Origin: Cheilinus undulatus
Taxonomy: Eukaryota > Chordata > Actinopteri > Labriformes > Labridae
Length of the DNA stretch: 64,000 nucleotides
Direction: 5' to 3'
Assembly: GCF_018320785.1 (NCBI RefSeq)
Contig: NC_054877.1
Coordinates: 10,995,229-11,059,228, forward strand
A model generated the notes under the pieces. The model ran no database searches and was not told the DNA's origin. It saw nothing but the letters and a program-made list of their open reading frames with translations. Each line of letters starts with the position of its first letter. Position 1 is the stretch's first letter. Of the stretch, positions 19,528 to 64,000 are shown one piece after another. A program made the translations under genes and the position numbers.

Positions 19528-19592
19528 CCGGTCAACTGTCTTCTTTCTCTTTCCACTTCACAAAGGCGTACCATCCCACCACTGCCACCAAA

Positions 19593-19984
19593 TGTCATGC
19601 TCTTGGATGGCAGGCAGTGTGAGTGGGAGAAAAAATTGCAACCAGGTGGAGGATTCATACGCAGAGGAGAACTTTAATTTTCTGACCATCAAAACAACAA
19701 CAAATATTTCAAAAAATAATAGTCCCCTGCAGAGGAAAAACAGAAAGAGTAGTCCAACATAGGGGAAAAGGCTCTCCTCATAGCCTCATCTCAACAGTGA
19801 CACACACCTCCCATGCTCTGTTACCTACAGCTCTCATCACAGCCACACTGACTGCAGGTGTGATCAATCTCACACCTGCAGCAGGTGAGAGAAAATGCAG
19901 CTCAACTAAAGAGCAAAGGGAAAACCCTATTTAAAAAGATATTTAAAGCAATACATTTTAATTAAAGAAACACAAAATTTACAT
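19593..19984 (-). repeat. 5' LTR of retrotransposon copy B
   Basis: About 392 bp, nearly identical to the LTR at 14358-14750 and ending CATGACA (minus strand) before the same TTTGGTGGCAGTGG sequence. Homology with the shared LTR continues about 12 bp beyond its apparent start, through the purine-rich CAAGGGGA tract, so the exact outer boundary is uncertain. Confidence 0.85.
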
Positions 19985-19997
19985 ATCCCCTTGTGCT

Positions 19998-21230
19998 TTA
20001 TTCAAAATCAAAAGTATCCAATCCAAGGATTTGCTTCAAAAGCCGTTTTACTCCACCTATTGTAAGCAGATGACTGATGTCACACAGGGTTTGTCCAATG
20101 CTTTCTACAGTCTATGGGCAAAACACACTAAACTGCCCCCAACGAAGAATTTCACTATAGTTCCACCTGCCACATATGGGCACAAAGACTTCAGACTTGA
20201 TTCATCCCTGCCACCTGCAGCAATGGAGTAGCACTTATGTCCATGCTTCATCATAGTTTGTTTCTTTTGAGGTGTCAAATAAATATTTTAAATGTGTATT
20301 GTTCTCTGTGTGTTTTTATCACAGAGCCATCTTGGGTGAAGAAAACACACTAAACTCCATAAGACCATTAGGACCAAGAAATACTATGAAACATTACTGT
20401 TGCAATGACTTCTATGTTGGGCCCTTTTTTGATCTATATTGAGAACTATATCTCCCAGAACCAGTTTGGATTATCTGGTGCTAATATGGTGTTAAAATGC
20501 ACTAGAATACAGGAAATGGCATCTACTTAATTGAAAATGTTCTAGGGGAAGACCCCCAGATCCCCTAGGGATTTATTTATTTATTTCTGAGTGTTCTTCA
20601 CAGTCCAACGTTGAATCTACACAGTTCTTGTGGATGCTGATCCTAACTACAAACTAACTTGAGTAGTCTGTCTAGTTAGTCTGTTTTAAGGCTTTTATAA
20701 TGTGCCATTTGTATAACATATAAACATGTCCAAAGTGCCCTCGAAAACACACCTACCTTAGTGCCCTCTTCAGTGGCGAGAACACGCTGTATATGCCCTT
20801 TTTGTTCTTTTCGCCCCTACCCTTAAAAAAGTCTGTGCATGCCACTGATAAACAATAACCTACAAAGTTGAAAAAGATTATGTAGAAGAGCGGAAAGGAA
20901 GTGAGAGAAGACAAAATTACATGAAAGACCTTCCCTACCCTGACTTCCTTTAACAAACAGGAGAAAGACACAAGTCAACTACTTCTCTAACCTGATACCA
21001 ATAACCAGAACAAACACACCATACCTATTTAAAACCATAAATCTACTTATTAACCCTCCCTCCTCTAGCTCTCTAAGCTTCCTCAAAGATCATCGGTATC
21101 TGTTCTACTGTTATTCTGCTGACAGCAACACCCTATTCCCATGGTTATCCTGTCCACTATGGAGTACTTAGACACTTTCAACCTTTCTCTATCAACCTTA
21201 TCAACACTGTCTCAATCTGAAAGAGGTGAT
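19998..21230. other. unrecognised DNA
   Basis: Flank of the retrotransposon array with no gene or element that I can name. A short ATTT repeat occurs near 20572-20588. Confidence 0.4.
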
Positions 21231-26740: not shown

Positions 26741-27164
26741 CTTAACAAATTTATTAGACCACTTCCCAAAGTAAGGTTTATGCCACAGCTGCCCTAAGTA
26801 AACAGCATTGGTAATTACCAAAATCATTTTTTATGTTTCTGCAATGGTTAATAAACCAATATTTAGAAGCTCCTTAACCCAAATGAAATTTTTAATGCTA
26901 AAATATAATTATTATTGTTATCCATGAATTTTCAAATGTATACTGATTTACAAAAAAACTGAAAAATAGTAAAGCACATCAATATTTCTTGATTAATATG
27001 TCAAATTATAGTTATTTCCTTGCATTCTTGAATAGAAAAATGAGTTTTAGTGGTTGAATGTTATGCTTGATTCATTTCTGACTTCTCAGAGAAGCCCAGT
27101 GAGCTGGCTCAAATTTGGGTATAAAAAGGTGAATTCAGTTTGAAATTCCTAATTCCTATTCAAA

Positions 27165-27895
27165 ATTGTAAAACTTGGAGAGCTCAATGAAAATGAAAGA
27201 GTCCACATTAAAGCACTTCATGATGCTGGATGGTCTCTGAGACAAATAGGGAAAGAAATAAAGTGTTCTCACAGTGTGGTCAAGTATGCTTTGGAGTCAA
27301 TTGCAGAGACTGGTACTTACAAAATGAGCCAAAGAAGAGGCAGGAAACCAAAGTTAACTGAAGCAGATGTCAGATACCTCAAGATTTTAAGTACTAGAGA
27401 CAGAAGGAAGACCACTGCTGATCTTCAGGCAGAGATGAATGCTTCTAGATCAGAGTCTGAGAAAGTCTCCAGAATGACCATAAGCAGACGACTGACGGAA
27501 CAAGGCTTAAAGGGAAGAACAGCTGCTAAGAAGCCATTATTGAGGCCTGCAAACATCCAGAAACGCCTCAGATTTGCCAGGGATCACAAACACTGGACTG
27601 TTGATGACTGGAAGAGGGTACTCTGGAAGGACCAGTCCAAGTTTGAACTCTTCGGTCAGCATCGTTGTGTTTATGTCTGCAGAAAAGCTGGAGAACGTTT
27701 TGATGCCAGATGCATTGCACCCACAGTGAAACACAGTGGAGATTCCATTATGGTATGGGGTTCCATTTGTGGATACAGCGTGGGCAAATTAGTGAAAATG
27801 GATGGTATCATGAACAAGAACATCTACCACAACATCTTAGTGCATCATGGAATCCCTTCTGGACTGAATCTGATTGGTTGTGGGTTTATATACCA
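27165..27895 (+). pseudogene. Tc1 transposase, N-terminal two thirds
   Basis: Reading starts at 27165, where the expected start codon is ATT; the related copy at 8533-9081 has ATG on its minus strand. A helix-turn-helix (ALHDAGWSLRQIGKEIKCSH) is followed by the GRKPKL hook-like basic segment, a second helical DNA-binding region (MTISRRLTEQGLKGRT), and the catalytic domain with VLWKDQSKFELFG (first aspartate) and MVWGSICGYSVGKLVKMDG. The protein breaks off after YQLDN, inside the block carrying the second aspartate, where inserted DNA begins. Lost start codon and disruption make it a pseudogene. Confidence 0.88.
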
Positions 27896-28105
27896 ACTAG
27901 ACAATTTCCACAAGCAGAAATCGCAAGAGGGGCTCGGGGAGCCGTGCCAGTTTCATCGCAGGGTGATTTATGACAATAGACCTGACTTGTCAATACAAGG
28001 TCATGTCAAAGTCCAGGCTGAAGCAGCATGAAGCTGGACAATGACTAGGTGAAATGGTTGAGAAACACTGTACATGACAGGAGACTTCATTCATGTGTTG
28101 TAGGG

Positions 28106-35900: not shown

Positions 35901-38371
35901 GCCATCCGTACTGTGCCTGGGCCCGTTTCAGCCTAAAATCCGGTACATTTGGCCAATGTGAGTGCAATTGTTTTTCGTGCTTCGGCGCCGCATGCTTTGC
36001 GGCCCCGGCTTGGAAGGACGAGGTGGGCCTAGGCACGGCACGGATGAGAGTTGCCAGCAGGAGGGGGGGTCAAGAATCCTGGGGCACAAAGAAGGCAGTT
36101 TGGTTCAGGTAAAAAAAAGGCATGGAGCAAAAACTTGAAGCCAAAGTATTGCAAAACAGCAATTTGCAAAAAAAAACTAGTGTTAATCATGATTAACCAC
36201 AGCATTTTTTAAATAATTTAAGTATATTTTCATGTTTTTATATTTATTAAAGGTTTTTATTGTCAAGTGTTTTATTTTTATTCTTTTAATTCTATGTACA
36301 GCACATTGAAAGTGCTGATGTGAGTCCTTATCGATACCACTATTAATACTTTCTATAGTTTGGTGGAAAGACAAAATAAGGGTAAGTATTTAAACTACAA
36401 GTTGTCTTAGCTGAGTAGTACTTGAGTTAAAAAGGCTATGATTCAGTCTGTCACATCTATTGTATATCCCTTAGATATAAACACATATTCATAACTATTT
36501 ATTGAAGTTTCTCATCAAAAACTAAATTTTCACATTTTTATTTGACATTTAAACACATAACATAAAGAATATAGTCGTCTAATTTACTGAGGTTACCTGA
36601 ACGCATCATATTTTCCATCTTCAGCTCCTAAAGTTCGCTAATTAACTTCAATTTTGCCAGTTCCACCACAGATTTCTACAGTGGGTTAATATTGTTAACA
36701 AACAGGACTTGCTCAAGTTTAGGAGCACTGTCAGCATTGATCTGAGCAGCTGAAGAGGAAAACTGTCCTGAAGCAGCTGAAGAGAGTGGTATGACCATGG
36801 CTTGATCCCGTGATGTTGTTAGCATCTTTGCTAACATTAGCAAAGATGTGCTTTACCTGAAGGTGGAACTTGCAACTCGTGCTTCGGTGTAAACACAGTT
36901 CATCACTGCAGCATGTACCCACAATTTGGTTTTTATCTTAACTAACATTCTCCAGCTTTTTGAAAATAAAATTGCCATTAAGCATACCTGGGTCTTTCTC
37001 CTCACTCATCACTGCTGGCTGTGTCTGACCCTCTCACCTCTTCACCCTCAGGCACATAAACATCCGTGCTGGAGGACTACAGGAGCAGTTGTGGTCAAAC
37101 TTAGTCATATGATTAAATTGCATTATTATTTTTTTTTAACATGTTAAGGTTTCAAGATTAATCCCAAGCATTTAGTGTTAATGTTAGCAGCCCTAAAAAA
37201 CACAAAAAAGGCCTTAGGTGTGTACCACTGTGACTGATATATGAGCTGGTAATGAGTGGCTGTTGAATTACAGTGGAGCTTGATAAGCTGATGGGGAGCA
37301 GCTGAGCAGGTTTGAGCAGGTGAAAGAAATCAAAAAATAGGAGAGAAGAGAATATTGTTAACAATAGCTTTAACCCCTTCAAGGGATGTTAGAAGTCCTC
37401 AGCCTCTGGTTGTATTCTTGAAGTCACTGGCTGAAAAGTTAGGGAACCCCTGGTCTAGACTGTTTTCATTGCTCTACCATTTAGGAAAACACATTATTTC
37501 ATCAGGGATGCACAATTGTATTACAACAGCCGAAGTATCTGCTTCTTTTTCCTCCACCTGTTCATAACACATGCACACCACACTCCCTCTCTCTCACTCA
37601 TCCACCACTGAACTCTTTCATTGTGTGCTCGTGGAGTAAAGCAGGTGGGCAGTGCCACTTTTAACAGCTTTTCTCCCTCATTATGTTGAAAACATACATT
37701 AAAAGAAAACAGGGATATAATGTCAAGCAAATATACTAACTGGTGTTCTCTCTTCATAAGACTTCTTAACTTAGGAAATAGGACCAACAAAGCTGGCAAG
37801 TATATGTTACTTGGTGAGGAAGATCTGCTCTTGTTGAATTTTGCCTTAAACTATTACAAGAAAAACTCAAAAATCAGGCATAAAGCAGAAATTTGCAGAC
37901 TAAATATTTTTGTTTTTCTCTTCATTGAACAGATGGTTCTTTCAGCCTGCATCTTTTTGTTGCCGATCACCCCAGACTCCTTGAAGGAAGCATTCATGCC
38001 CCTCCACACGTTCCTCGGACGTTTTCTCTTTGGTAGCGCCATCTCGGTGTCACTCATTGGCATTACAGAGAGACTCATTTTTGGCCTGTAAGCATCACTA
38101 TAAAAATCTGCTTTAAATTAAACATGTTTTAAAAAGTGAGAGTGATACCTAACAGTTTTTGTAACCGGTGTTTGTTATCATTTTATCCTCCTTATTCAGG
38201 AAAGAGCCAAATTACATGGATTCTCCTCCTGAGGCGATTTTTGCCAATGTTATGGGAATGCTCCTGGTGGCCTATGGTGTTGCAGTCCTCTGGATTTCCA
38301 TTCACAGATCATGGAAACGTCCTGGTGATCCAGTGTGGCGTACCAGTGGGCTTGAGGACAAGATAAAATGA
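32765..38371 (+). CDS. cybrd1: cytochrome b561 family ferric reductase (cybrd1/Dcytb-like), frameshift in exon 1
   Basis: Four exons (32765-32952, 35067-35275, 37933-38087, 38200-38371) with GT-AG introns. They total 724 nt, one base more than a 240-residue frame plus stop. Cytochrome b561 proteins are six-helix membrane reductases that move electrons from ascorbate across a membrane; Dcytb reduces iron at the gut surface. [13 protein letters not shown] and YRLPWT are closest to vertebrate CYBRD1. The four haem-ligand histidines are visible in NWHPV, YIHAGLN, SLHSWLG and PLHTFLGR, one pair per haem. The C-terminal tail is much shorter than the 286-residue human protein. The ATG frame and the b561 frame differ by one base near 32822-32834, so this is either a sequence error or a disabled gene. 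CYB561A3 is a less likely assignment. Confidence 0.85.
33575..34248. mobile_element. non-autonomous hAT element with GTCAAAAT periodic interior
   Basis: The ends CAGGGGTCAACATT and, in reverse complement, CAGGTTTGTCAAACTC are hAT-like inverted repeats. The flanks CCCTAATA (33567-33574) and CCTTAATA (34249-34256) are an 8-bp target duplication with one mismatch. The interior, about 33690-33990, is a degenerate tandem of AAAGTCAAAATNATGAG-like words every 20-30 bp. Confidence 0.8.
34615..34800 (+). mobile_element. LINE/SINE 3'-tail fragments
   Basis: CCACTTTATTTATATAGCAC, and then GTAAAGTGCTTTTTAAATAAAGTAG, resemble the 3' ends of fish L2-type LINEs and the SINEs that share them. No coding sequence. 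Confidence 0.45.
35067..35275 (+). CDS. cybrd1: cybrd1-like exon 2
   Basis: Begins after TTGCAG and completes a GCC codon with the last base of exon 1, giving [13 protein letters not shown] across the junction. It carries YIHAGLN and FSLHSWLGL, each with a haem-ligand histidine. It ends at CTGCAG before GTAAAT, phase 0. Confidence 0.93.
35276..37932 (+). other. intron 2
   Basis: GTAAAT to TTGAACAG. It contains TTAGTTTTAGTTT-rich sequence near 35570-35660, a CACTCACACT-bounded MITE around 35880-36115, and a palindrome CATCTTTGCTAACATTAGCAAAGATG at about 36823-36848 given here by its arms CATCTTTGCTAA / TTAGCAAAGATG. No supported exon of another gene. Confidence 0.75.
35885..36115. mobile_element. 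probable MITE in intron 2
   Basis: GGGTGCACTCACACTAGGCC and nearby GGCCAATGTGAGTGCAATTG are inverted relatives of the CACTCACA ends seen in fish non-autonomous elements. The right end is not clear. Confidence 0.35.
37933..38087 (+). CDS. cybrd1: cybrd1-like exon 3
   Basis: Follows TTGAACAG and reads [29 protein letters not shown] (fourth haem-ligand histidine) and [10 protein letters not shown]. It ends with two bases of a leucine codon before GTAAGC, phase 2. Confidence 0.92.
38200..38371 (+). CDS. cybrd1: cybrd1-like exon 4
   Basis: Follows CTTATTCAG and restores the leucine codon. It encodes [19 protein letters not shown], the last membrane helix ([13 protein letters not shown]) and a short tail [10 protein letters not shown] to a TGA at 38369-38371. 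The SWKRP motif after the last helix is typical of the family. Confidence 0.93.
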
Positions 38372-47665: not shown

Positions 47666-49072
47666 TTTAATAATTTAACATTTATTTATTTTTAGTTTGG
47701 GGAGAACTTGAGGATTCATTTTTGATATCACTAATGTTATCGTAGAGTATGTAAGTATTGATCGGGGCTTTTGTTTTGATATATTTGTAGTTTGGAGAGG
47801 ATGGGCGGGCACTGGGGAAGGTGAATGGTTTTTTACCAGGAAGGCATGGGCTAGGAGCACACCAGGAGAACGCCAAAGAGAAACCTTTTGATTTTGAGTG
47901 CGTTTGTTAATTGACAACAGCAAATCACTGCTACAATATATTTAAACTAAAGGAGTAAGCCAGACTCAAAATGTTTGAGGGGCGAAAATGATAACTAGGG
48001 CACCTGCTGTATGCAGTGGGGCACCAGCACACAACCTGCTTATCTGATGTTTATCTATCAACCGGGGCATTAGAGTAGGCACACAATTTTTCAAACATTA
48101 GGTCATGAAGGGGGAGGAATGCCCCTCTCTGAGTCCAGCAGTAAAATAAAGACAGCACCATTTACAAGTATATAGCACATAATCTAAATGCTATATTTTT
48201 CTTTAAAGGGGCTCTATGCAAGATTTAGAAAAATATCAGTGTAGCGACACCGCCGGCCATTAGGCGAACTACAGCAATACTGTGTTGCATGTCCACGACA
48301 GCACGCTCCTTGCTCATGAACGAGCCTCTGGTTTATCAGCTGATACACAAGCAGACCAAGGTGATTTACCGGCATCGTGTATACAGAGGAGGTAAGTGAA
48401 GTGACACTTAAAAGTTCCACCAACTAAAAATTAAAATGAATAAAGCATATTTGAACCTCTAGTGCGGACACGGCACAAAGGCTACTGAAAAAGGACGATA
48501 TTTTTGCGACTATTTCTATGAATGAACAACTTAGCGACTTAGTGCAGCACTGACCAATTTAATTGTCTTTTTACGTGTATAATGTGTGATGTGTATTGAA
48601 TTGGACGCGTTTTAGAGCAGAAGCAACAGGGCTAACGTTGCTTCGGTGCCTCAACCACGGATATCAGATAGCTGACATTATGTGTTTAAGATATTTTACA
48701 AAGTATCAAAACATAAACTCAGTAAGTTGAGTCCAGTGCCAGGAAGCAAGAAAAAGATGAAATATTATCCGGAAAACACCGAATGAGTAATGTGACGTTC
48801 TCGTTGTTTGGATAGCATCTTTGTAAGCAAGCTAACGTGATGTAGCGTATGGTTTATACAGCATAAAACACTACATTGTATTTCATGGTCCAGAGTGATG
48901 CTCAACCTTTTCCACAGAAAGACAGCCATCTCTGGATCGGTTTTTATCCCGAGCGCCGAGCGTAGCTCCCTCTATTTCTCAAATGATCCATCGATATTTA
49001 TCCTCCATTTCCCCCTGTGTCGGTTACACTCTCTTAGCTTGACGGGCTTCAGCAGATAAAACTGTCTTAGTT
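47666..49072. other. unrecognised DNA left of the tandem array
   Basis: No gene that I can name. AGGGGCTCTATGCAAGATTT near 48207 looks like the end of a fish repeat. Sequence from 48440 to 49070 is somewhat CpG-richer. The array starts cleanly after ACTGTCTTAGTT at 49072. Confidence 0.4.
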
Positions 49073-49180
49073 AGGGTTCTAACCCCTCCGGGGGTTAGAA
49101 CCCTATTGTTTTCCTGCCGGTTTATTAGGGTTCTAACCCCGAAGGGGTAGAACCCTATTGTTTTCGTCCCGGTTTATTAT
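49073..49180 (+). repeat. start hairpins of unit 1 (2 copies)
   Basis: The first copy has a perfect 13-bp stem, GGGTTCTAACCCC / GGGGTTAGAACCC, around TCCG. The second is the common form with GGGTTCTAACCCC, GAA and GGGGTAGAACCC. Each is followed by TATTGTTTTC and GGTTTATTA. Confidence 0.9.
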
Positions 49181-51176
49181 TATTTCCGTTCTGCCGCTTG
49201 AGCTAAAATTCCCGTGAGCTGGAATGAGCTAGAAAGCTGAAACTTGGCCAAAACATTGGAAATGATGTGCAGCAACTTTCCATTAATCATGAGCCCGGTC
49301 AGCCACATGGTGGCGCTACAATTAAGGCCTAAAATCTTTTTTTTGGGAAGGCCACGCCCCTCACACCGTGAGTCCGATTGACTTGAAAATCGGCCCACAG
49401 ATGCAGCTCAATGTGCTCTACAAAAAAGCCAATTGGACCCCTAAAGTCCGCCTAATTAGATTTTTGGCTAATTAGCATAATTTGAAAAACAGTCAAATGA
49501 ATAGAAGTCGGGAAATATTTACCCTATCAGCACCAAATTTGGCACATGGCCTCGGGGGACAAAAAGTCAAATTTCTATTATCGATGAGCCTGATCCGTTC
49601 AAAAACATGGCCGCTAGACCCCGAAATATCTTTGCTACTGGGCGGAGCCAACAAATGATTGGTCAGAACTCTCACACCTTTTGCCCGATCATCACCAAAT
49701 TTGGTATGTAGGTTCACAACAGGACTGGGAAGCTGCCTGTCAAAGCGTTTTGAGCTCAACCCATAGGGGGCGCTATAAACACCACATGTCTATATCTCAA
49801 AGACCATTGGTTGGAATTTCACCAAATTTGGTGTGCATGTTCTAGGGGCGAGTATTAACTAAAATGTTAAGCAGCATATTTATTGGTGAAAGTGGGCGTG
49901 GCCTATTCATCATTAAGTACCTTTTCTTCATTTGTGGTGAGCTGGAATGACCTAGAGACACCAATCTTTGTACGTCAAGTATAAATGATGTGTAAATGCT
50001 GCTCCTAAAATTTGAGCCGAATCGGCCTAAAGGGGGCGCTATAACGTAGAGTGCAAAACTTCAAAAGCCCCGCCCCCACACACAGCAAGTGCTGTTGACT
50101 TGAAATTTCTCACACAGCTTCACCTGATAGGTCTCTACAAAAAAGCCTCTTGCACCATCAACGCCGTTATTACGGATTTTTGGCTAATATGCATAATGCT
50201 AAAAACAGTCAAATGAATAGAACTTTTGCAAAATTAATGCTATCTACACCAATGTTGGTATGTGGCATCGGGGGACCGAGATGCTCATTTCTATTGCAGA
50301 AGAGCACAATCGGTTGAAAAACGTAGCCGGGTCAATCCGAGTATTGAGTGCCATTTGAGTCGCCATGCCATAATGTGGTGTATTTTGTGTAAAAGTGGGC
50401 TAATATTTATTTTGAAAATATCTTGTTACATGGTTAACTCCCCTCTACCATAAAACACAACCATATATACACAGGATGACTTAACCCTTTAAAACCCACC
50501 ATTATGCCAGTCCGCCAGGAAATATTCTTAGATTTTTACATACTGTAGTGGCATTTTTGGCAGTATTTTTGTTTGCTTAACATCAAAAAAACCCTTATAT
50601 CCCAAATTTTAATAATATGTATTGACTTAAGTATTAACTACTACAATAAATTGTTTAAAAGTGCAATAAACCTAAAAAAATGAAAATCGTTTTTGTTTTT
50701 TCACATATATTTCAAAATACAGAAATTGCACAGCTGTATCCCTCAAATTTGTCAATGTAAAAAAGTTGCACGATATCCTTTGGAACCACAGGAAATTTAT
50801 TTGGAGTCTCTACATAACTTGCTTTGTGAGATATAGTCAATTTTGTAACCTTTAACAAAAACTGAGCCGTATCCTCCTGACTACCAGGAAAAAAAATGTT
50901 GTCCATTCACATGTTTTGTAAATCCCCCAATCTTTGTAAGGTACTTAGAATACTGAAAATATTTTTTGGAAAAAAAAATAGTTTTCATTTTTAAGATGTC
51001 ATGAATGCCATACATGTGAAAACGAATCTTGATGGCAATCAGTTATTCCCAAAGAAAATAGCAAAAAGTCAATATAAGAATGAGTTTAACATCCACATAA
51101 CTGTCCATCATCACTTTTTTTTTGTTTTGCTTTGTTTTGCTCATTTGGTATGACACTTCAAAAAGCAATTTCCTGA

Positions 51177-51617
51177 GCCTGTGATGTTGCCCTCTGAGCC
51201 TGTGATGACCCCCTCTGTGCCTGTGATGAGGCCCTCTGAGCCTGTGATGTTGCCCTCTGAGCCTGTGATGAGGCCCCCTGAGCCTGTGATAAGGCCCTCT
51301 GAGCCTGCAATGACCCCCTCTGTACCTGTGATGTGCACTTCAAAGCCTGTGATGAGGCCCTCTGAGCCTGCAATGACCCCCTCTGAACCTGTGATGTGCA
51401 CTTCAGAGCCTGTGATTAGGCCCTCTGAGCCTGCAATGACCCCCTCTGAGCCTGTGATGTTGCCCTCTTAGCCTGTGATGTTGCCCTCTGAGCATTTGAT
51501 TTGACCTTCTGAGCCTGTGATGTGCCCTTCTGAGTCAGCAATGACCCCCTCTGAGCCTGTGATTTGACCTTCTGAGCCTGCAGTGACCCCTTTTGAGCCT
51601 GTGATGACCCCTTCTGC
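51177..51617 (+). repeat. 21-bp minisatellite in unit 1 (21 copies)
   Basis: Twenty-one units of exactly 21 bp, of the form GCCTGTGATGTTGCCCTCTG plus A, with variants in the second half. Because 21 is divisible by three, long repetitive open frames appear on both strands. These are not evidence of a protein. Confidence 0.95.
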
Positions 51618-51888
51618 TCTGAAACATGGTGAATGTGTGAAATGTTAGTGTAACTCCCCAGGTTTTACATGCAAAAGGAATGATTGATCTATCTTATGCA
51701 GTTTCAAATCTATCCACAATCAAAAATGGATATGCTTACTTTGGTGTCTTAGCCAACCCTATGCTGGGATCTATAGGGTTAAATCACCACATGTGTTCAT
51801 TAGGTATTTGTAACCCAGTTGTATATTTTAATATAGGTTTCCCTGTATAACATCTAAGCTGCCGCTTTAATTATCACGTCCTTTGAAA

Positions 51889-51898
51889 TCTCGCGAGA
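51889..51898. promoter_or_regulatory. TCTCGCGAGA element, unit 1
   Basis: A perfect 10-bp palindrome known as the CGCG element of vertebrate CpG-island promoters and bound by BANP. It lies 38 bp before an ATG and about 110 bp before a splice-donor-like CAG/GTAACT. Confidence 0.6.
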
Positions 51899-51926
51899 CT
51901 TGAGGTCACGAGAGTTGCGCTGCTCC

Positions 51927-52147
51927 ATGCGGGATATACCAGACAGACTCTCTATCGCTTATCAGGTGTGTGGGGGAAGCAGGACCATGAGCAGCTGCAG
52001 GTAACTTAGTTAGCCCTTTAAGATCACTCGTTTTTCTATCTAAAATGATCCGGTTTTAACCGTTGTGCTCCTCAACTTGTAGATGCGTCCACTGCCGATG
52101 AAAAACTCTCCGACTGTGATTCGTGTTACAAGTAAACAAAGGAATTG
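51927..52147 (+). other. two exon-like blocks of a possible captured transcript, unit 1
   Basis: Block 1 ends at 52000 in GCTGCAG before GTAACT. Block 2, 52083-52147, follows CTCAACTTGTAG and ends before GTGAGTGTC. Spliced, an ATG at 51927 would give a 30-codon frame starting MRDIPDRLSIAYQV and ending at a TGA in block 2. The 82-bp intron is short but normal for fish. Units 2 and 3 keep the same sites and frame. Possible third-exon acceptors lie at 52613 (TTTTCTTAG) and 52663 (CTTGTTCAG). I do not recognise the peptide. A captured promoter and 5' exons of a host gene are an inference. Confidence 0.35.
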
Positions 52148-53642
52148 GTGAGTGTCACGGCGCTAATGCTAACCGGCGCTAATGCTAATCGGCGCTAGCA
52201 TTTGTTTATGCATCTAATGTGTTTCTGTGGTGATATCCAGCTAATGCTAGCCCAGTATTTCCGTGTATTACCCAGTCAATTGTTGTGGTGGTGTTTAGTG
52301 CTGGTTGTGCTGCTCTATAGCTTAAGTGGCTACTTTGTCTTATTGTTGACATGTCTCTTGCATTTAATGTGACTTGCTGTCACTGGTTTATTGAATGACC
52401 TTGGTCTAATGTTTTATTAGCTACATTCAAGCATTGAATTAACACCTAATCATTATTATATGCCTGAAGTATTAATATGCAATTATGGTAGCTGTATCTG
52501 CACTTAATTGCACTTTATTATCAAAAAGATGGTGCTGCAGAAATACTTGTGTATCAATAATGTACATCTCCAAGCTGATTACAATCAGTCATATTTGCTA
52601 TTTATTTTCTTAGGCATTTGTTTTGTGTACACAAGTTATTTATACATGCATGTTCTTGTTCAGGCCAGGTTTTGTGGGGGTTTAGGGGTAAGACCTGCCG
52701 ATTGGAAACAACCCAGCAGCCCAGCCTGTGAACTCTCCTCACTCTGACAACCTACACCTGGATGTGCGGTAGGAGGCTCTGCAGCCGATCCTTTCACTCA
52801 CTCCCACCACCTCCAACGTGCTCGGGACCCTTTTAAAGGACCCCTGTCCTCTTGGGTTATTTGGAGTAGAAATGTTCTCTGGAACTGGACCATTGAACTG
52901 ACTAAACTCTTCTTTTGCGTTGTGTGGATTCTAAACGTTCTGACGGGGATTGCAGAAGCATAAATGAACTCTTACTGTACCTTGTGTGTATCAAATGTTA
53001 ACTATTAACTTCCTCAAGTGCACTTGAACTGTATATATTGTACATATTAATCAATAACACCTGGTATTTTGGTAGCACCGCACAATTTGTCCTGTTTTCA
53101 TTTTGGCACAATATTATTTCCTCCTAGAGTGAACTGAATCTTCTGATCATTTTAATTGGGTCATAGTATTACTCAATTGTAACTGCTAATTGCGATCAAT
53201 ACACCCTATACAAGTGTTACATATTTCTTTGATACATGTCAACATAAAGTGAGATGTGTGTGTCACAGTTAGGAGCACGTAATGGGAGAAGTGACGTTGT
53301 CTTTCTGAAATTTGGCCCATAAAATGTCACTACAGCGGCACTGGTGAAGAGTGCTGTCAAAGAGGGAGCAACGACAGCTGTTTTTGATTGTGTTCATGTG
53401 TGAGAAGCTTGACCTACATGTATATGTTGATCCAAACATGCTGACATCATGGACTGCTACTTTGTTGCATTCACTTTCTGAAGCTCTGTAGGATCTTGGA
53501 GATGGTTCTCAGGAAAGGGGTTTTCCTTGCTTCTTTTTGGCTAAACCGTGTGCTTGACCGCTCACGTATTGCTTCTGGGAGGCGTGGAGCCCAGGGGCTG
53601 ACTGAATATAGGGCTGGTCTTGGCCGTTGGAAAGGGCGGAAA

Positions 53643-53676
53643 GGGTTAGAACCCGCCAATAGCCGCTTGCGGCTAT
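53643..53676 (+). repeat. right-end motif and terminal hairpin, unit 1
   Basis: GGGTTAGAACCC (53643-53654) is the exact reverse complement of the start motif GGGTTCTAACCC. It is followed by ATAGCCG, CTTG, CGGCTAT (53659-53676), a 7-bp perfect stem four bases from the unit boundary. Confidence 0.9.
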
Positions 53677-53680
53677 ATTT

Positions 53681-54190
53681 AGGGTTCTAACCCCGAAGGG
53701 GTAGAACCCTATTGTTTTCCTGCCGGTTTATTATTAGGGTTCTAACCCCGAAGGGGTAGAACCCTATTGTTTTCCTGCCGGTTTATTAGGGTTCTAACCC
53801 CGAAGGGGTAGAACCCTATTGTTTTCCTGCCGGTTTATTATTATTATTATTATTAGGGTTCTAACCCCGAAGGGGTAGAACCCTATTGTTTTCCTGCCGG
53901 TTTATTATTATTAGGGTTCTAACCCCGAAGGGGTAGAACCCTATTGTTTTCGTCCCGGTTTATTAGGGTTCTAACCCCGAAGGGGTAGAACCCTATTGTT
54001 TTCCTGCCGGTTTATTAGGGTTCTAACCCCGAAGGGGTAGAACCCTATTGTTTTCCTCCCGGTTTATTATTATTAGGGTTCTAACCCCGAAGGGGTAGAA
54101 CCCTATTGTTTTCCTGCCGGTTTATTATTAGGGTTCTAACCCCCGGAGGGGGTAGAACCCTATTGTTTTCCTGCCGGTTTATTATTATTT
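53681..54190 (+). repeat. start hairpin array of unit 2 (9 copies)
   Basis: Copies begin at 53681, 53736, 53788, 53855, 53913, 53965, 54017, 54075 and 54130, spaced 52-67 bp. The length varies through TTA repeats after GCCGGTTTATT. The last copy has CCCCC paired with GGGGG around GGA. Confidence 0.93.
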
Positions 54191-56173
54191 TTCTCCTGCC
54201 GGTTGAGCTCAAATTCCCGTGAGCTGGAATGAGCTAGAAAGCTGAAACTTGGCCAAAACATTGGAAATGATGTGCAGCAACTTTCCATAAATCATGAGCC
54301 CGGTCAGCCACATGGTGGCGCTACAATTAAGGCCTAAAATCTTTTTTTTGAGAAGGCCACGCCCCTCACACCGTGAGTCCGATTGACTTGAAAATCGGCC
54401 CACAGATGCAGCTCAATGTGCTCTACAAAAAAGCCTCTGGGACCCCTAAAGTCCGCCTAATTAGATTTTTGGCTAATTAGCATAATTTGAAAAACAGTCA
54501 AATGAATAGAAGTCGGGAAATATTTACCCTATCAGCACCAAATTTGGCACATGGCCTCAGGAGACAAAATGTCAAATTTCTATTATCGATGAGCCTGATC
54601 CGCTCAAAAACATGGCCGCTAGACCCCGAAATATCTTTGCTACTGGGCGGAGCCAACAAATGATTGGTCAGAACTCCCACACCTTTTGCCCGATCATCAC
54701 CAAATTGGGTATGTAGGTTCACAACAGGACTGGGAAGCTGCCTGTGTAAGCGTTTTGAGCTCAACCCATAGGGGGCGCTATAAACACCACATGTCTATAA
54801 CTCAAAGACCATTGGTTGGAATTTCACCAAATTTGGTGTGCATGTTCTAGGGGCGAGTATTAACTAATGTGTTGAGCAGCATATTTTTTGGTGAAAGTGG
54901 GCGTGGCCTATTCATCATTAAGTACCTTTTCTTCATTTGTGGTGAGCTGGAATGACCTAGAGACACCAATCTTTGTACGTCAAGTATGAATGACGTCTAA
55001 ATGCTGCTCCTAAAATTTGAGCCCAATCGGCCTAAAGGGGGCGCTATAACATAGAGTGCAAAACTTCAAAAGCCCCGCCCCCACAAACAGCAAGTGCTGT
55101 TGACTTGAAATTTCTCACACAGCTTCACCTGATAGGTCTCTACAAAAAAGCCTCTTGCACCACTAACGCCGTTATTACGGATTTTTGGCTAATATGCATA
55201 ATGCTAAAAACAGTCAAATGAATAGAACTTTTGCAAAATTGATGCTATCCACACAAATGTTGGTATGTGGCATCGGGAGACCGAGACGCTCATTTCTATT
55301 ACAGAAGAGCACAATCGGTTGAAAATCGTAGCCGGGTCAATCCGAGTATTGGGTGCCATTTGAGTCGCCATGCCATAATGTGGTGTATTTTGTATAAAAG
55401 TGGGCTAATATTTATTTTGAAAATATCTTGTTACATGGTTAACTCCCCTCTACCATAAAACACAACCATATATACACAGGATCAATTAACCCTTTAAAAC
55501 CCACCATTATGCGAGTCCGCCAGGACATATTCTTAGATTTTTACATACTGTAGTGGCATTATTGGGAATATTTTTGTTCGCTTAACATCAAAAAAACCCT
55601 TATATCCCAAATTTTAATAATATGAATCGACTTAAGTCTTAATTACTACAATAAATTGCTTAAAAGTGCAATAAACCTAAAAAAATGAAAATCGCTGTTG
55701 TTTTTTTCACATATATTTCAAAATACAGAAATTGCACAACTGTATCCCTCAAATTTGTCAATGTAAAAAAGTTGCACAATATCCTTTGGAACCACAGGAA
55801 ATTGATTTGGAGTCTCTACATAACTTGCTTTTTGAGATACAGTCAATTTTGTAACCTTTAACAAAAACCAAGCCATATCCTCCTGACTACCAGGAAAAAA
55901 AATGTTGTCCATTCACATGTTTTGTAAATCCCCCAATCTTTGTAAGGTACTTAGAATACTGAAAACATTTTTTGGAAAAAAAAAAAAGTTTTTATTTTTA
56001 AGATATCATAAATGCCATACATGTGAAAACGAATCTTGATGGCAATCAGTTATTCCCAAAGAAAATACCAAAAAGTCAATATAAGAATGAGTTTAACATC
56101 CACATAACTGTCCATCATCACTTTTGTTTTGTTTTGCTCATTTGGTATGACACTTCAAAAAGCAATTTCCTGA

Positions 56174-56341
56174 GCCTGTGATGTTGCCCTCTGAGCCTGT
56201 GATGAGGCCCTCTGAGCCTGTGATAAGGCTCTCTGAGCCTGCAATGACCCCCTCTGAGCCTGTGATGTTGCCCTCTTAGCCTGTGATGTTGCCCTCTGAG
56301 TCTGCAGTGACCCCCTCTGAGCCTGTGATGACCCCTTCTGC
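56174..56341 (+). repeat. 21-bp minisatellite in unit 2 (8 copies)
   Basis: Eight 21-bp units in the same position relative to unit boundaries, beginning and ending with the same flanks (AATTTCCTGA and TCTGAAACATGG). Confidence 0.95.
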
Positions 56342-56612
56342 TCTGAAACATGGTGAATGTGTGAAATGTTAGTGTAACTCCCCAGGTTTTACATGCGAAA
56401 GGAATGATTGATCTATCTTATGTAGTTTCAAATCTATCCACAATCAAAAATAGATATGCTTACTTTGGTATCTTAGCCAACCCTACGCTGGGATCTATAG
56501 GGTTAAATCACCACATGTGTTCATTAGGTATTTGTAACCCAGTTGTATATTTTAATATAGGTTTCCCTGTTTAACATCAAAGCTGCCGCTTTAATTATCA
56601 CGTCCTTTGAAA

Positions 56613-56622
56613 TCTCGCGAGA
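56613..56622. promoter_or_regulatory. TCTCGCGAGA element, unit 2
   Basis: Same palindrome at the same place in unit 2, with intact flanks. Confidence 0.6.
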
Positions 56623-58383
56623 CTTGAGGTCACGAGAGTTGCGCTGCTCCATGCGGGATATTCCAGACAGACTCCCTATCGCTTATCAGGTGTGTGGGGG
56701 AAGCAGGACCATGAGCAGCTGCAGGTAACTTAGTTAGCCCTTTAAGATCACTCGTTTTTCTATCTAAAATGATCCGGTTTTAACCGTTGTGCTCCTCAAC
56801 TTGTAGATGCGTCCACTGCCGATGAAAAACTCTCCGACTGTGATTCGTGTTACAAGTAAACAAAGGAATTGGTGAGTGTCACGGCGCTAATGCTAACCGG
56901 CGCTAATGCTAATCGGCGCTAATGCTAATCGGCGCTAGCATTTGTTTATGCATCTAATGTGTTTCTGTGGTGATATCCAGCTAATGCTAGCCCAGTATTT
57001 CCGTGTATTACCCAGTCAATTGTTGTGGTGGTGTTTAGTGCTGGTTGTGCTGCTCTATAGCTTAAGTGGCTACTTTGTCTTATTGTTGACATGTCTCTTG
57101 CATTTAATGTGACTCGCTGTCACTGGTTTATTGAATGACCTTGGTCTAATGTTTTATTAGGTACATTCAAACATTGAATTAACACCTAATCATTATTATA
57201 TGCCTGAAGTATTAATATGCAATTATGGTAGCTGTATCTGCACTTAATTGCACTTTATTATCAAAAAGATGGTGCTGCAGAAATACTTGTGTATCAATAA
57301 TGTACATCTCCAAGCTGATTACAATCAGTCATATTTGCTATTTATTTTCTTAGGCATTTGTTTTGTGTACACAAGTTATTTATACATGCATGTTCTTGTT
57401 CAGGCCAGGTTTTGTGGGGGTTTAGGGGTAAGACCTGCCGATTGGAAACAACCCAGCAGCCCAGCCTGTGAACTCTCCTCACTCTGACAACCTACACCTG
57501 GATGTGCGGTAGGAGGCTCTGCAGCCGATCCTTTCACTCACTCCCACCACCTCCAACGTGCTCGGGACCCTTTTAAAGGACCCCTGTCCTCTTGGGTTAT
57601 TTGGAGTATAAATGTTCTCTGGAACTGGACCATTGAACTGACTAAACTCTTCTTTTTGCGTTGTGTGGATTATAAACGTTCTGACGGGGATTGCAGAAGC
57701 ATAAATGAACTCTTACTGTACCTTGTGTGTATCAAATGTTAACTATTAACTTCCTCAAGTGCACTTGAACTGTATATATTGTACATATTAATCAATAACA
57801 CCTGGTATTTTGGTAGCACCGCACAATTTGTCCTGTTTTCATTTTGGCACAATATTATTTCCTCCTAGAGTGAACTGAATCTTCTGATCATTTTAATTGG
57901 GTCATAGTATTACTCAATTGTAACTGCTAATTGCGATCAATACACCCTGTACAAGTGTTACATATTTCTTTGATACATGTCAACATAAAGTAAGATGTGT
58001 ATGTCACAGTTAGGAGCAGGTAATGGGAGAAGTGACGTTGTCTTTCTGAAATTTGGCCCATAAAATGTCACTACAGCGGCACTGGTGAAGAGTGCTGTCA
58101 AAGAGGGAGCAACGACAGCTGTTTTTGATTGTGTTCATGTGTGAGAAGCTTGACCTACATGTATATGTTGATCCAAACATGCTGACATCATGGACTGCTA
58201 CTTTGTTGCATTCACTTTCTGAAGCACTGTAGGATCTTGGAGATGGTTCTCAGGAAAGGGGTTTTCCTTGCTTCTTTTTGGCTAAACCGTGTGCTTGACC
58301 GCTCACGTATTGGTTCTGGGAGGCGTGGAGCCCAGGGGCTGACTGAATATAGGGCTGGTCTTGGCCGTTGGAAAGGGCGGAAA

Positions 58384-58417
58384 GGGTTAGAACCCCCCAA
58401 TAGCCGCTTGCGGCTAT
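58384..58417 (+). repeat. right-end motif and terminal hairpin, unit 2
   Basis: Same arrangement; the spacer reads CCCCA instead of CGCCA. The hairpin is unchanged. Confidence 0.9.
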
Positions 58418-58421
58418 ATTT

Positions 58422-58925
58422 AGGGTTCTAACCCCGAAGGGGTAGAACCCTATTGTTTTCCTGCCGGTTTATTATTAGGGTTCTAACCCCGAAGGGGTAG
58501 AACCCTATTGTTTTCCTGCCGGTTTATTATTAGGGTTCTAACCCCGAAGGGGTAGAACCCTATTGTTTTCCTGCCGGTTTATTATTAGGGTTCTAACCCC
58601 GAAGGGGTAGAACCCTATTGTTTTCCTACCGGTTTATTATTATTAGGGTTCTAACCCCGAAGGGGTAGAACCCTATTGTTTTCCTGCCGGTTTATTATTA
58701 ATAGGGTTCGAACCCCGAAGGGGGAGAACCCTATTGGATTCGTCCCGGTTTATTAGGGTTCTAACCAAGAGTAGAACCCTATTGTTTTCCTCGGTTTATT
58801 ATTATTAGGTTCTAACGAAGAAGTAGAACCTATTGTTTTCCTGCCGGTTTATTATTAGGGTTCTAACCCCCGGAGGGGGTAGAACCCTATTGTTTTCCTG
58901 CCGGTTTATTATTATTTTTCTCCTG
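58422..58925 (+). repeat. start hairpin array of unit 3 (9 copies, some shortened)
   Basis: Copies begin at 58422, 58477, 58532, 58587, 58645, 58703, 58755, 58807 and 58857. The copies at 58755 and 58807 have lost bases in both arms but keep a pairing stem (GGGTTCTA with TAGAACCC; GGTTCTA with TAGAACC). The last copy carries the same CCCCC/GGGGG variant as in unit 2. Confidence 0.93.
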
Positions 58926-60905
58926 CCGGTTGAGCTCAAATTCCCGTGAGCTGGAATGAGCTAGAAAGCTGAAACTTGGCCAAAACATTGGAAATGATGT
59001 GCAGCAACTTTCCATAAATCATGAGCCCGGTCAGCCACATGGTGGCGCTACAATTAAGGCCTAAAATCTTTTTTTTGAGAAGGCCACGCCCCTCACACCG
59101 TGAGTCCGATTGACTTGAAAATCGGCCCACAGATGCAGCTCAATGTGCTCTACAAAAAGCCTCTGGGACCCCTAAAGTCCGCCTAATTAGATTTTTGGCT
59201 AATTAGCATAATTTGAAAAACAGTCAAATGAATAGAAGTCGGGAAATATTTACCCTATCAGCACCAAATTTGGCACATGGCCTCAGGAGACAAAATGTCA
59301 AATTTCTATTATCGATGAGCCTGATCCGCTCAAAAACATGGCCGCTAGACCCCGAAATATCTTTGCTACTGGGCGGAGCCAACAAATGATTGGTCAGAAC
59401 TCCCACACCTTTTGCCCGATCATCACCAAATTTGGTATGTAGGTTCACAACAGGACTGGGAAGCTGCCTGTCAAAGCGTTTTGAGCTCAACCCATAGGGG
59501 GCGCTATAAACACCACATGTCTATAACTCAAAGACCATTGGTTGGAATTTCACCAAATTTGGTGTGCATGTTCTAGGGGCGAGTATTAACTAATGTGTTG
59601 AGCAGCATATTTTTTGGTGAAAGTGGGCGTGGCCTATTCATCATTAAGTACCTTTTCTTCATTTGTGGTGAGCTGGAATGACCTAGAGACACCAATCTTT
59701 GTACGTCAAGTATGAATGAGGTCTAAATGCTGCTCCTAAAATTTGAGCCCAATCGGCCTAAAGGGGGCGCTATAACATAGAGTGAAAAACTTCAAAAGCC
59801 CGCCCCACAGCAAGTGCTGTTGACTTGAAATTTCTCACACAGCTTCACCTGATAGGTCTCTACAAAAAGCCTCTTGCACCACTAAAGTCCGCCTAATTAC
59901 GGATTTTTGGCTAATATGCATAATGCTAAAAACAGTCAAATGAATAGAACTTTTGCAAAATTAATGCTATCTACACCAATGTTGGTATGTGGCATCAGGG
60001 GACCGAGACACTCATTTCTATTACAGAAGAGCACAATCGGTTGAAAAACGTAGCCGGGTCAATCCGAGTATTGAGTGCCATTTGAGTCGCCATGCCATAA
60101 TGTGGTGTATTTTGTGTAAAAGTGGGCTAATATTTATTTTGAAAATATCTTATTACATGGTTAACTCCCCTCTACCATAAAACCCAACCATATATACACA
60201 GGATCAATTAACCCTTTAAAACCCACCATTATGCGAGTCCGCCAGGACATATTCTTAGATTTTTACATACTGTAGTGGCATTATTGGGAATATTTTTGTT
60301 CGCTTAACATCAAAAAAACCCTTATATCCCAAATTTTAATAATATGAATCGACTTAAGTCTTAATTACTACAATAAATTGCTTAAAAGTGCAATAAACCT
60401 AAAAAAATGAAAATCGCTGTTGTTTTTTTCACATATATTTCAAAATACAGAAATTGCACAACTGTATCCCTCAAATTTGTCAATGTAAAAAAGTTGCACA
60501 ATATCCTTTGGAACCACAGGAAATTGATTTGGAGTCTCTACATAACTTGCTTTTTGAGATACAGTCAATTTTGTAACCTTTAACAAAAACCGAGCCATAT
60601 CCTCCTGACTACCAGGAAAAAAAATGTTGTCCATTCACATGTTTTGTAAATCCCCCAATCTTTGTAAGGTACTTAGAATACTGAAAACATTTTTTGGAAA
60701 AAAAAAATAGTTTTTATTTCTAAGATATCATGAATGCCATACATGTGAAACCGAATCTTGATGGCAATCAGTTATTCCCAAAGAAAATAGCAAAAAGTCA
60801 ATATAAGAATGAGTTTAACATCCACATAACTTTCCATCATCACTTTTGTTTTGTTTTGCTTTGTTTTGCTCATTTGGTATGACACTTCAAAAAGCAATTT
60901 CCTGA

Positions 60906-61136
60906 GCCTGTGATGTTGCCATCTGAGCCTGTGATGAGGCCCTCTGAGCCTGTGATAAGGCCCTCTGAGCCTGCAATGACCCCCTCTGAGCCTGTGATGT
61001 GCACTTCAGAGCCTGTGATGAGGCCCTCTGAGTCTGCAATGACCCCCTATGAGCCTGTGATGTTGCCCTCTGAGCATTTGATTTGACCTTCTTAGCCTGT
61101 GATGTGCCCTTCTGAGCCTGTGATGACCCCTTCTGT
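60906..61136 (+). repeat. 21-bp minisatellite in unit 3 (11 copies)
   Basis: Eleven 21-bp units between the same flanks. The order of variant units differs from units 1 and 2, consistent with unequal exchange. Confidence 0.95.
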
Positions 61137-61407
61137 TCTGAAACATGGTGAATGTGTGAAATGTTAGTGTGACTCCCCAGGTTTTACATGCAAAAGGAAT
61201 GATTGATCTATCTTATGCAGTTTCAAATCTATCCACAATCAAAAATGGATATGCTTACTTTGGTATCTTAGCCAACCCTACGCTGGGATCTATAGGGTTA
61301 AATCACCACATGTGTTCATTAGGTATTTGTAACCCAGTTGTATATTTTAATATAGGTTTCCCTGTATAACATCAAAGCTGCCGCTTTAATTATCGCGTCC
61401 TTTGAAA

Positions 61408-61417
61408 TCTCGCGAGA
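61408..61417. promoter_or_regulatory. TCTCGCGAGA element, unit 3
   Basis: Same palindrome in unit 3, kept although neighbouring bases differ (TATCGCGTCC upstream instead of TATCACGTCC). Confidence 0.6.
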
Positions 61418-63178
61418 CTTGAGGTCACGAGAGTTGCGCTGCTCCATGCGGGATATTCCAGACAGACTCCCCATCGCTTATCAGGTGTGTGGGGGAAGCA
61501 GGACCATGAGCAGCTGCAGGTAACTTAGTTAGCCCTTTAAGATCACTTGTTTTTCTTTCTAAAATGATCCGGTTTTAACCGTTGTGCTCCTCAACTTGTA
61601 GATGTGTCCACTGCCGATGAAAAACTCTCCGACTGTGATTCGTGTTACAAGTAAACAAAGGAATTGGTGAGTGTCACGGCGCTAATGCTAACCGGCGCTA
61701 ATGCTAATCGGCGCTAATGCTAATCGGCGCTAGCATTTGTTTATGCATCTAATGTGTTTCTGTGGTGATATCCAGCTAATGCTAGCCCAGTATTTCCGTG
61801 TATTACCCAGTCAATTGTTGTGGTGGTGTTTAGTGCTGGTTGTGCTGCTCTATAGCTTAAGTGGCTACTTTGTCTTATTGTTGACATGTCTCTTGCATTT
61901 AATGTGACTCGCTGTCACTGGTTTATTGAATGACCTTGGTCTAATGTTTTATTAGGTACATTCAAACATTGAATTAACACCTAATCATTATTATATGCCT
62001 GAAGTATTAATATGCAATTATGGTAGCTGTATCTGCACTTAATTGCACTTTATTATCAAAAAGATGGTGCTGCAGAAATACTTGTGTATCAATAATGTAC
62101 ATCTCCAAGCTGATTACAATCAGTCATATTTGCTATTTATTTTCTTAGGCATTTGTTTTGTGTACACAAGTTATTTATACATGCATGTTCTTGTTCAGGC
62201 CAGGTTTTGTGGGGGTTTAGGGGTAAGACCTGCCGATTGGAAACAACCCAGCAGCCCAGCCTGTGAACTCTCCTCACTCTGACAACCTACACCTGGATGT
62301 GCGGTAGGAGGCTCTGCAGCCGATCCTTTCACTCACTCCCACCACCTCCAACGTGCTCGGGACCCTTTTAAAGGACCCCTGTCCTCCTGGGTTATTTGGA
62401 GTAGAAATGTTCTCTGGAACTGGACCATTGAACTGACTAAACTCTTCTTTTGCGTTGTGTGGATTATAAACGTTCTGACAGGGATTGCAGAAGCATAAAT
62501 GAACTCTTACTGTACCTTGTGTGTATCAAATGTTAACTATTAACTTCCTCAAGTGCACTTGAACTGTATATATTGTACATATTAATCAATAACACCTGGT
62601 ATTTTGGTAGCACCGCACAATTTGTCCTGTTTTCATTTTGGCAAAATATTATTTCCTCCTAGAGTGAACTGAATCTTCTGATCATTTTAATTGGGTCATA
62701 GTATTACTCAATTGTAACTGTTAATTGCGATCAATACACCCTATACAAGTGTTAGGTATTTCTTTGATACATGTCAACATAAAGTGAGCTGTGTATGTCA
62801 CAGTTAGGAGCACGTAATGGGAGAAATGACGTTGTCTTTCTGAAATTTGGCCCATAAAATGTCACTACAACGGCACTGGTGAAGAGTTCTGTCAAAGAGG
62901 GAGCAACGACAGCCATTTTTGATTGTGTTCATGTGTTAGAAGCTTGACCTACATGTATATGTTGATCCAAACATGCTGACACCATGGACTGCTACTTTGT
63001 TGCATTCACTTTCTGAAGCACTGTAGGATCTTGGAGATGGTTCTCAAGAAATGTGTTTTTCTCAGCTTCTTTTTGGCTAAACCGTGTGCTTGACCGCTCA
63101 CGTATTGCTTCTGGGCGGCGTGGAGCCCAGGGGCTGATTGAATATAGGGCTGGTCTTGGCCGTTGGAAAGGGCGGAAA

Positions 63179-63212
63179 GGGTTAGAACCCGCCAATAGCC
63201 GCTTGCGGCTAT
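63179..63212 (+). repeat. right-end motif and terminal hairpin, unit 3
   Basis: Identical to unit 1 in motif, spacer and hairpin, four bases before unit 4 begins. Confidence 0.9.
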
Positions 63213-63216
63213 ATTT

Positions 63217-64000
63217 AGGGTTCTAACCCCGAAGGGGTAGAACCCTATTGTTTTCCTACCGGTTTATTATTATTATTATTTGTCTCCTGCCGGTTGAGCT
63301 AAAATTCCCGTGAGCTGGAATGAGCTAGAAAGCTGAAACTTGGCCAAAACATTGGAAATGATGTGCAGCAACTTTCCATAAATCATGAGCCCGGTCAGCC
63401 ACATGGTGGCGCTACAATTAAGGCCTAAAATCTTTTTTTTGGGAAGGCCACGCCCCTCACACCGTGAGTCCGATTGACTTGAAAATCGGCCCACAGATGC
63501 AGCTCAATGTGCTCTACAAAAAAGCCAATTGGACCCCTAAAGTCCGCCTAATTAGATTTTTTGCTAATTAGCATAATTTGAAAAACAGTCAAATGAATAG
63601 AAGTCGGGAAATATTTACCCTATCAGCACCAAATTTGGCACATGGCCTCAGGGGACAAAATGTCAAATTTCTATTATCGATGAGCCTGATCCGTTCAAAA
63701 ACATGGCCGCTAGACCCCGAAATATCTTTGCTACTGGGCGGAGCCAACAAATGATTGGTCAGAACTCCCACACCTTTTGCCCGATCATCACCAAATTTGG
63801 TATGTAGGTTCACAACAGGACTGGGAAGCTGCCTGTCAAAGCGTTTTGAGCTCAACCCATAGGGGGCGCTATAAACACCACATGTCTATAACTCAAAGAC
63901 CATTGGTTGGAATTTCACCAAATTTGGTGTGCATGTTCTAGGGGCGAGTATTAACTAATGTGTTGAGCAGCATATTTTTTGGTGAAAGTGGGCGTGGCTA
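63217..64000 (+). mobile_element. tandem Helentron-like unit 4 (partial, cut by window end)
   Basis: Starts with a single hairpin, then TTATTATTATTATTATT and the same block as the other units. It matches unit 1 rather than 2 or 3 at GGGAAGGCC and AAGCCAATTGGACC. The array continues beyond 64000. Confidence 0.65.

Follow-up and report, generated by a model that had tools for sequence, protein, structure and literature searches.

Helentrons and their non-autonomous partners (HINEs) have been described as pairs in the mite Metaseiulus and in Culex. These pairs share palindromic subterminal inverted repeats (subTIRs) of 12-15 bp, the 5' one lying 2-4 nt from the end, a 3' hairpin, insertion at TT with boundary T's, and internal tandem repeats, and an S between the G and the P of Rep motif 2, with F/Y-x-R adjacent to it, sets Helentrons apart from Helitrons (PMC4067079, which like the other papers cited here was available to us in part). 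The Helitron2 element FoHeli of Fusarium oxysporum has asymmetric terminal inverted repeats, a joined-end form, short multiple 5' termini and, in two subgroups, hairpins at both ends (PMC5148889). Tandem rolling-circle arrays are reported from plants (Xiong et al. 2016, via PMC12628747), and one case of three tandem copies, its origin left open, comes from Metarhizium (PMC5148889). Whether such arrays stem from a missed terminator or from repeated end insertion is unsettled in the cited literature (PMC5148889, PMC4067079). Here we analyzed a 64,000-nucleotide stretch of the fish Cheilinus undulatus (contig NC_054877.1, positions 10,995,229 to 11,059,228; hereafter the window), which contains a tandem array of Helentron-like units that, taken with a Rep-bearing relative in the same genome, resemble the Metaseiulus, Culex and FoHeli elements in the features listed above. 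The genome offers six clusters, mixed unit types, single copies and a Rep/helicase relative; because mixed-type clusters sit beside single copies and this relative, the models of array origin differ here in checkable predictions.

The window holds three complete units joined head to tail with zero spacer, unit 1 (U1; 49071..53679, 4609 bp), unit 2 (U2; 53680..58420, 4741 bp) and unit 3 (U3; 58421..63215, 4795 bp), followed by a partial fourth (U4; 63216..64000), all on the plus strand. These coordinates, and the identical letters ATAGCCGCTTGCGGCTATATT|TAGGGTTCTAACCCC at all three junctions, bear out the arrangement proposed in an earlier note on this DNA, which had been made from the sequence alone. 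The host flank to the left of U1 reads ..CTTAGT|TAGGG, and the complete units are 97.2-98.1% identical to one another over aligned bases. The array does not end at 64000: the next 100 bases are N, U4 stops at this assembly gap, and the right end lies beyond the window data. No element sequence was detected in the 9.4 kb past the gap (E 1e-8).

Each unit begins with a run of palindromic 50-67 bp iterons with TTA repeats between them, in 2, 9, 9 and 1 copies in U1 to U4 (49072..49179 in U1, 53680..54184 in U2 and 58421..58914 in U3); at least two of those in U3 are clearly degenerate. As folded single strands, two of the iterons scored 4.9 and 7.1 standard deviations better than shuffles. Each U1 iteron opens with the 5' subTIR GGGTTCTAACCC. 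With one mismatch allowed and both strands counted, this motif has 42 occurrences in the window, none before 49074, against 0.34 expected by chance. The 3' subTIR GGGTTAGAACCC, likewise 12 bp long and palindromic, was located by motif search at 53643..53654 (U1), 58384-58395 (U2) and 63179-63190 (U3). It is followed by the terminal hairpin ATAGCCG-CTTG-CGGCTAT (53659..53676, 58400-58417 and 63195-63212), which has a 7-bp stem and a CTTG loop and lies 3 nt from the unit end. Folding by itself is weak evidence for this hairpin (z -2.0; 11 of 200 shuffles fold equally well); in 27 of the 32 3' ends listed, however, no letter of it is changed. Comparison of the first and last 60 bases of adjoining units gives a longest inverted match of 12 bp, a length reached by 0 of 500 shuffles, in agreement with the proposal that the start motif and the right subterminal motif are reverse complements. 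The asymmetry that had been described was right as to the extra 3' hairpin but not as to the 5' end, which is a run of hairpin iterons rather than a single motif. Compared with the Metaseiulus and Culex pairs, the 3' subTIR is 25 rather than 38-60 nt from the end and the hairpin 3 rather than about 8-35 nt, and the iterated 5' hairpin and whole-element arrays are unlike those pairs (PMC4067079). The ends, TAGGG...ATATT at T|T, are also not those of canonical Helitrons (5' TC, 3' CTRR, A|T target).

The flanks of copies elsewhere in the assembly agree with these ends. A T precedes the start TAGGG in all 13 placeable left host flanks, where T makes up 30% of left-flank bases; C14b, which lacks an intact 5' start, was left out of the 13. 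Because the start-finding pattern itself included this T, reading of the flanks by eye is the independent check. On the right, T follows the 3' end in 12 of 13 flanks, the exception being the C15 array, with C, and C4a and C4b have one changed letter in the terminal ATATT. Left and right flanks match over 1-3 bases in 8 of 10 loci, and over 5 and 6 bases in two arrays. No consistent target duplication of fixed length, which the earlier note had named as grounds for another transposon class, was found in these flanks, which point to insertion between T and T, as in Helentrons and HINEs. The outer flanks of the C15 array have CTTGT in common on left and right, a possible 5-bp repeat or chance.

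A comparison of solo insertions with empty sites, which had also been proposed, succeeded at two of three loci, where the empty sites are paralogous and seen as alignment spans. With the C6 flanks joined, 38 of 40 non-self rows extend 10 bases or more past the join to either side (best 40 of 2678 candidates), as do 36 of 38 for C5 (best 40 of 580; hand count). These matches represent empty sites at paralogous repeats, at the level of alignment rather than of letters. The third locus, the solitary copy C9c (L033, C9:49.7 Mb, around 1731), was dropped as an empty-site test, its left flank being the terminus of another repeat with 2125 candidates in the genome; the 38 non-self rows scored there stop at the join or at most 18 bases from it.

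A search for a Rep/helicase element with the same ends, suggested by the earlier note, led to C21. The PF14214 profile has four matches in the assembly, the best at C21:23223408-23224001(-), and a PF05970 match at C21:23221182-23221793(-) lies in the same phase of the same stop-free 1868-aa open frame, which thus holds Rep and PIF1-helicase matches. Around it, family 5' and 3' ends at 23239683 and 23214730 delimit 24,954 bp (C21:23214730-23239683(-)); the 5' end is 98% identical to the family over 328 bp, and the 3' tail 83-84%. The Rep stretch (L047) matches Helitron_like_N with 111.5 bits and reads ..DYFYRVEFQMRGSPHVH.., with the Rep motif VEFQMRGSPHVH; as in the Metaseiulus and Culex pairs, S stands between G and P of motif 2, with F/Y-x-R beside it. 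We read 801 bp of this frame at sequence level. The C21 element is thus a candidate autonomous partner that has both ends in common with the units. By their subTIRs, 3' hairpin, T|T insertion, partner and Rep signature the units class as Helentron/HINE elements, and the non-autonomous, Helentron-like nature proposed for them is supported by the ends, the T flanks, the single copies and this relative. A second Rep/PIF1 Helitron-type locus, C10:34621847-34624627, has a Rep match with one stop and no family end nearby among the matches listed.

The long form of the family matches the partner over two stretches, the first reaching U3 position 2872 (the minisatellite differs in length) and the second starting at about 2878 once the insertion described below is omitted, so that U3 1-2872 and the last ~495 bp are held in common. 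On this account the long form without the insertion looks like an internal deletion of the partner lineage. The idea that the upstream C21 tail is old and so dates the order of insertions was dropped: the 5' part of that element resembles the units at 93-98%, and the tail's 16% divergence may thus reflect lineage rather than age.

From left to right, a unit consists of the iterons, a ~2.0-kb body, a 21/63-bp minisatellite (51173..51616 in U1, 56170-56331 in U2, 60902-61126 in U3), a ~1.43-kb insertion and a ~0.46-kb 3' part, which holds the 3' subTIR and the hairpin. The body has no long frames, and a 0.27-kb stretch in it is repeated 0.72 kb further on at 71% identity. No frame of at least 110 aa was found in the array; the longest in U1, of 108 aa, lies over the minisatellite, and four U1 frames gave no Pfam match. 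Within the window there were no PF14214 (Rep) or PF05970 (PIF1) matches and no Rfam matches at gathering level. The exact end motifs were absent from viral contigs, searched with two patterns, and from prokaryote genome contigs, searched with one, and the end-motif strings were not found in papers of the open-access literature.

The units had been described without inserts, yet each complete one carries the nested insertion, a long terminal repeat (LTR)-like passenger on the plus strand (51809..53221 in U1, about 56534-57957 in U2 and about 61329-62754 in U3) that begins with TG, ends with CA and in U1 has TATT on both sides. The sequence also occurs by itself at seven further loci, between 4-bp flank repeats that, as judged by eye, are exact at five (C18, C19, C4 at 52.8 Mb, C16 and C11; ATAA, CCAG, CAAT, CACG and CGTA) and have one mismatch at two (C4 at 56.2 Mb and C6); an eighth stand-alone copy, on C20, is without its left end. 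This led us to reject a captured host gene under selection as the explanation for the conserved central block. The C16 and C11 copies have the same ends and two GT..AG, intron-like stretches cleanly missing, which suggests that the passenger was transcribed, spliced and reverse-copied, and that it behaves much as a solo LTR does. The passenger in U1 holds a TCTCGCGAGA motif, which we take to be promoter-like.

Because the passenger occupies an identical position within the Helentron unit at four loci, a single chimeric copy that bore it has spread to at least four loci. This represents a case of a nested LTR-like element carried and multiplied by a Helentron; for FoHeli, the available part of the description gives no evidence that nested-transposon carriers moved (PMC5148889). 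Among six carriers (15 pairs) the passenger diverges by 0.0-2.7% per bin, and the bin immediately to its left is also low (0-2.7%), whereas divergence in the body is 2.0-6.6% in 51 of 60 bins and lower in the other 9. Since the passenger bins diverge little and most body bins more, element bodies have been exchanged after the passenger arrived. The low passenger divergence fits a younger common origin with later exchange of bodies.

In the searched assembly (1.17 Gb), the 5' end query (328 bp) had at least 56 matches and the 3' end query (200 bp) at least 40; family size is given as a lower bound because each end search scored the best 40 candidates. Single copies with the predicted ends were among them, as the note had anticipated. 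We compared 16 regions, the window array included; further end matches lie at C10:21844475, C15:25845202, C11:18296357 and 18298196, C9:30900506 and C1:41019070. The copies fall into size classes of ~1.6 kb (U3 positions 1-1935 joined to 4669-4795), ~3.1-3.8 kb without passenger (C6, C7 and C4a, and C14b with a cut start) and 4.3-4.8 kb with passenger (C13, C5, C21 and one C15 unit). Clusters comprise at least 4 units on C13, 10 on C15, 5 on C2, 7 on C9 and 2 on C14, and the partner plus one unit on C21. The 1.6-kb and 4.6-kb forms are mixed in arrays, and on C21 a 4.6-kb unit adjoins the 25-kb element. At all 24 junctions in the six clusters ATATT runs straight into T, head to tail; 13 continue directly into an iteron, 4 have TTA repeats and then an iteron, and 7 have TTA repeats without an iteron. 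The 13 leftmost or solitary units counted all have at least one iteron.

In a tree of 35 bodies, the arrays of the six contigs interleave. The closest relative of a unit is often found on another contig: C15_8 and C9_1, on different contigs, have identical bodies (1455 bp), and other close pairs also cross clusters (C15_6/C2_1, 0.69%; C13_1/C21a_1, 0.62%; C15_1 is nearest C9_7); close neighbours occur too (C15_2/3, C15_7/8 and C2_4/5). Seven close cross-cluster pairs span 0 to 1.4% divergence, a range that, although blurred by mosaicism, suggests that units were added over a period and not in a single burst. Being adjacent makes no difference in the three large arrays: mean divergence is 2.33% between neighbours and 2.44% over all within-array pairs (1104 of 5000 order shuffles as extreme). 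The description of the array as amplified in tandem therefore holds for the tandem arrangement but not for copying of one template, the array units coming from different lineages.

With little more than even confidence, we favour the reading that the units are non-autonomous Helentrons derived from the ~25-kb lineage and that the arrays formed by serial end-to-end addition of independent copies, which later recombined. Internal deletion of the ~25-kb Rep/PIF1-helicase lineage would have given the non-autonomous units (HINEs), one derivative of which would have taken up the LTR-like insertion and then moved it to at least four loci. The Rep/helicase would act on both common ends and place copies between T and T, the partner protein presumably doing both the moving and the end-joining, and transposition may pass through a circle. 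A T|T site (ATATT|TAGGG) is remade at each terminus, so that a resident copy could offer its own end as a target in a fixed orientation, and arrays would lengthen by one whole independent copy each time, always head to tail. Subsequent recombination between units would produce mosaics and altered iteron numbers. The ends may be preferred over other TT sites, possibly through the two palindromes beside the T run. That the joined termini are the preferred target, so that autonomous and non-autonomous copies from various loci are added singly at the T run between 3' hairpin and 5' palindrome and heteromeric arrays arise without a single-template concatemer, is a tentative proposal that we hold at somewhat less than even confidence. 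Insertion-site preference is likewise the proposed main route to transposon dimers in Drosophila (McGurk and Barbash 2018, via PMC12628747), although the array named there is of hobo and here the element is a T|T-inserting rolling-circle one without consistent target duplication. Heteromeric Helentron array sets like these were not found in the subset of open-access literature covered, and FoHeli, which is fungal, provides in the part available no array set large enough to tell serial insertion from rolling-circle replication (PMC5148889).

Tandem Helitrons of bat and silkworm were put down to terminator bypass (PMC4067079), and many plant arrays have multiple 5' ends, a single 3' end and truncated units (PMC12628747), as would follow if one template were over-replicated past a missed terminator and the concatemer inserted. 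Here, all 24 units before a junction retain their 3' end, adjacent units differ by the 2.33% given above with lengths and lineages mixed, and a 4.6-kb unit adjoins the 25-kb element on C21; over-replication is already strained by these findings and appears improbable. Still less probable is a plain satellite enlarged through gene conversion and unequal crossing-over. U2 has the order expected of a U1 x U3 unequal crossover, but classical satellite DNA lacks defined termini and solitary insertions, and its units are more alike within an array than between arrays, whereas this family has single copies with precise T|T ends, shares its ends with a Rep/helicase relative and forms clusters on six contigs that interleave in the tree. 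The single copies contradict such a process as the source of the arrays, though not as something that modified them later. Least probable of all, and very much so, is an artefact of assembly in array structure or unit order. The window array does stop at a 100-N gap, and the data are assembly sequence without reads, but the six separate clusters differ in flanks, unit lengths and orders.

Circular copies with joined ends might instead enter a resident copy by homologous recombination, at iterons or inside the unit, one unit per event. This would yield head-to-tail units from any donor together with widespread mosaicism, and the joined-end form is known for Fusarium Helitron2 (PMC5148889); we regard it as unlikely, though well short of negligible. 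Whole-unit addition predicts that the 5' and 3' parts of a unit are linked and that parts across a junction are not, whereas circle integration with crossovers inside units predicts about equal linkage across junctions. We compared the two at 21 junctions, having dropped 3 of the 24 (the partial U4, the first C15 unit, whose body is deleted, and the C21 partner). For the split 20-700 versus 1200-end, r was 0.40 within units (2 of 1500 permutations) and 0.01 across junctions (661 of 1500), with a bootstrap fraction of differences at or below zero of 0.021, or, for between-array pairs only, 0.052 (0.07-0.29 when all four splits were run). Three other splits gave within/across r of 0.17/-0.04, 0.18/-0.01 and 0.29/0.07 over all pairs. 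Linkage across junctions was thus lower in all four splits, mostly non-significantly; crossovers confined to the iterons would escape the test.

Several observations weigh against serial addition. The split with the clearest result was picked after segment 900-1200 had been seen to correlate with little, and the three others have bootstrap fractions of 0.122, 0.092 and 0.053 (0.154-0.291 between arrays), so the test, although of the same direction in all four splits, is weak, split-dependent and not decisive alone. A crossover hotspot in the palindromic iterons would likewise break junction linkage. The 7 of 24 junctions without an iteron then need later iteron loss, and the tails of C15_8 and C9_1 differ at two sites. 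Divergence is slightly lower between array mates than between units of different arrays (2.44 versus 2.73%; 51 of 5000 label shuffles). U2 is itself mosaic, with a U3-like 5' part and a U1-like 3' end: between 49180 and 49700 all 16 two-against-one sites group U2 with U3, and between 53150 and 53680, 18 of 25 group U1 with U2, 5 U1 with U3 and 2 U2 with U3. The likelihood gain was 17.0, against 9.2 for the largest of 2000 shuffles, in a break-point test confined to sites from 49180 onward that lie outside the minisatellite and do not group U1 with U3. The U2 order is that predicted by unequal crossover of U1 and U3, and together with the closeness of array mates it indicates that local recombination also acts.

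Elsewhere in the window, a Ty3/gypsy-type retrotransposon on the minus strand (11693-19998) has integrase ahead of reverse transcriptase in one frame, an order that we take to be that of Gmr1-like elements, and ~2.9 kb of it is duplicated at 98%. A Tc1-like transposase frame (HTH_Tnp_Tc3_2) lies at 27153-28031, and a frame at 37690-38091 that matches cytochrome b561 is probably a host gene exon.

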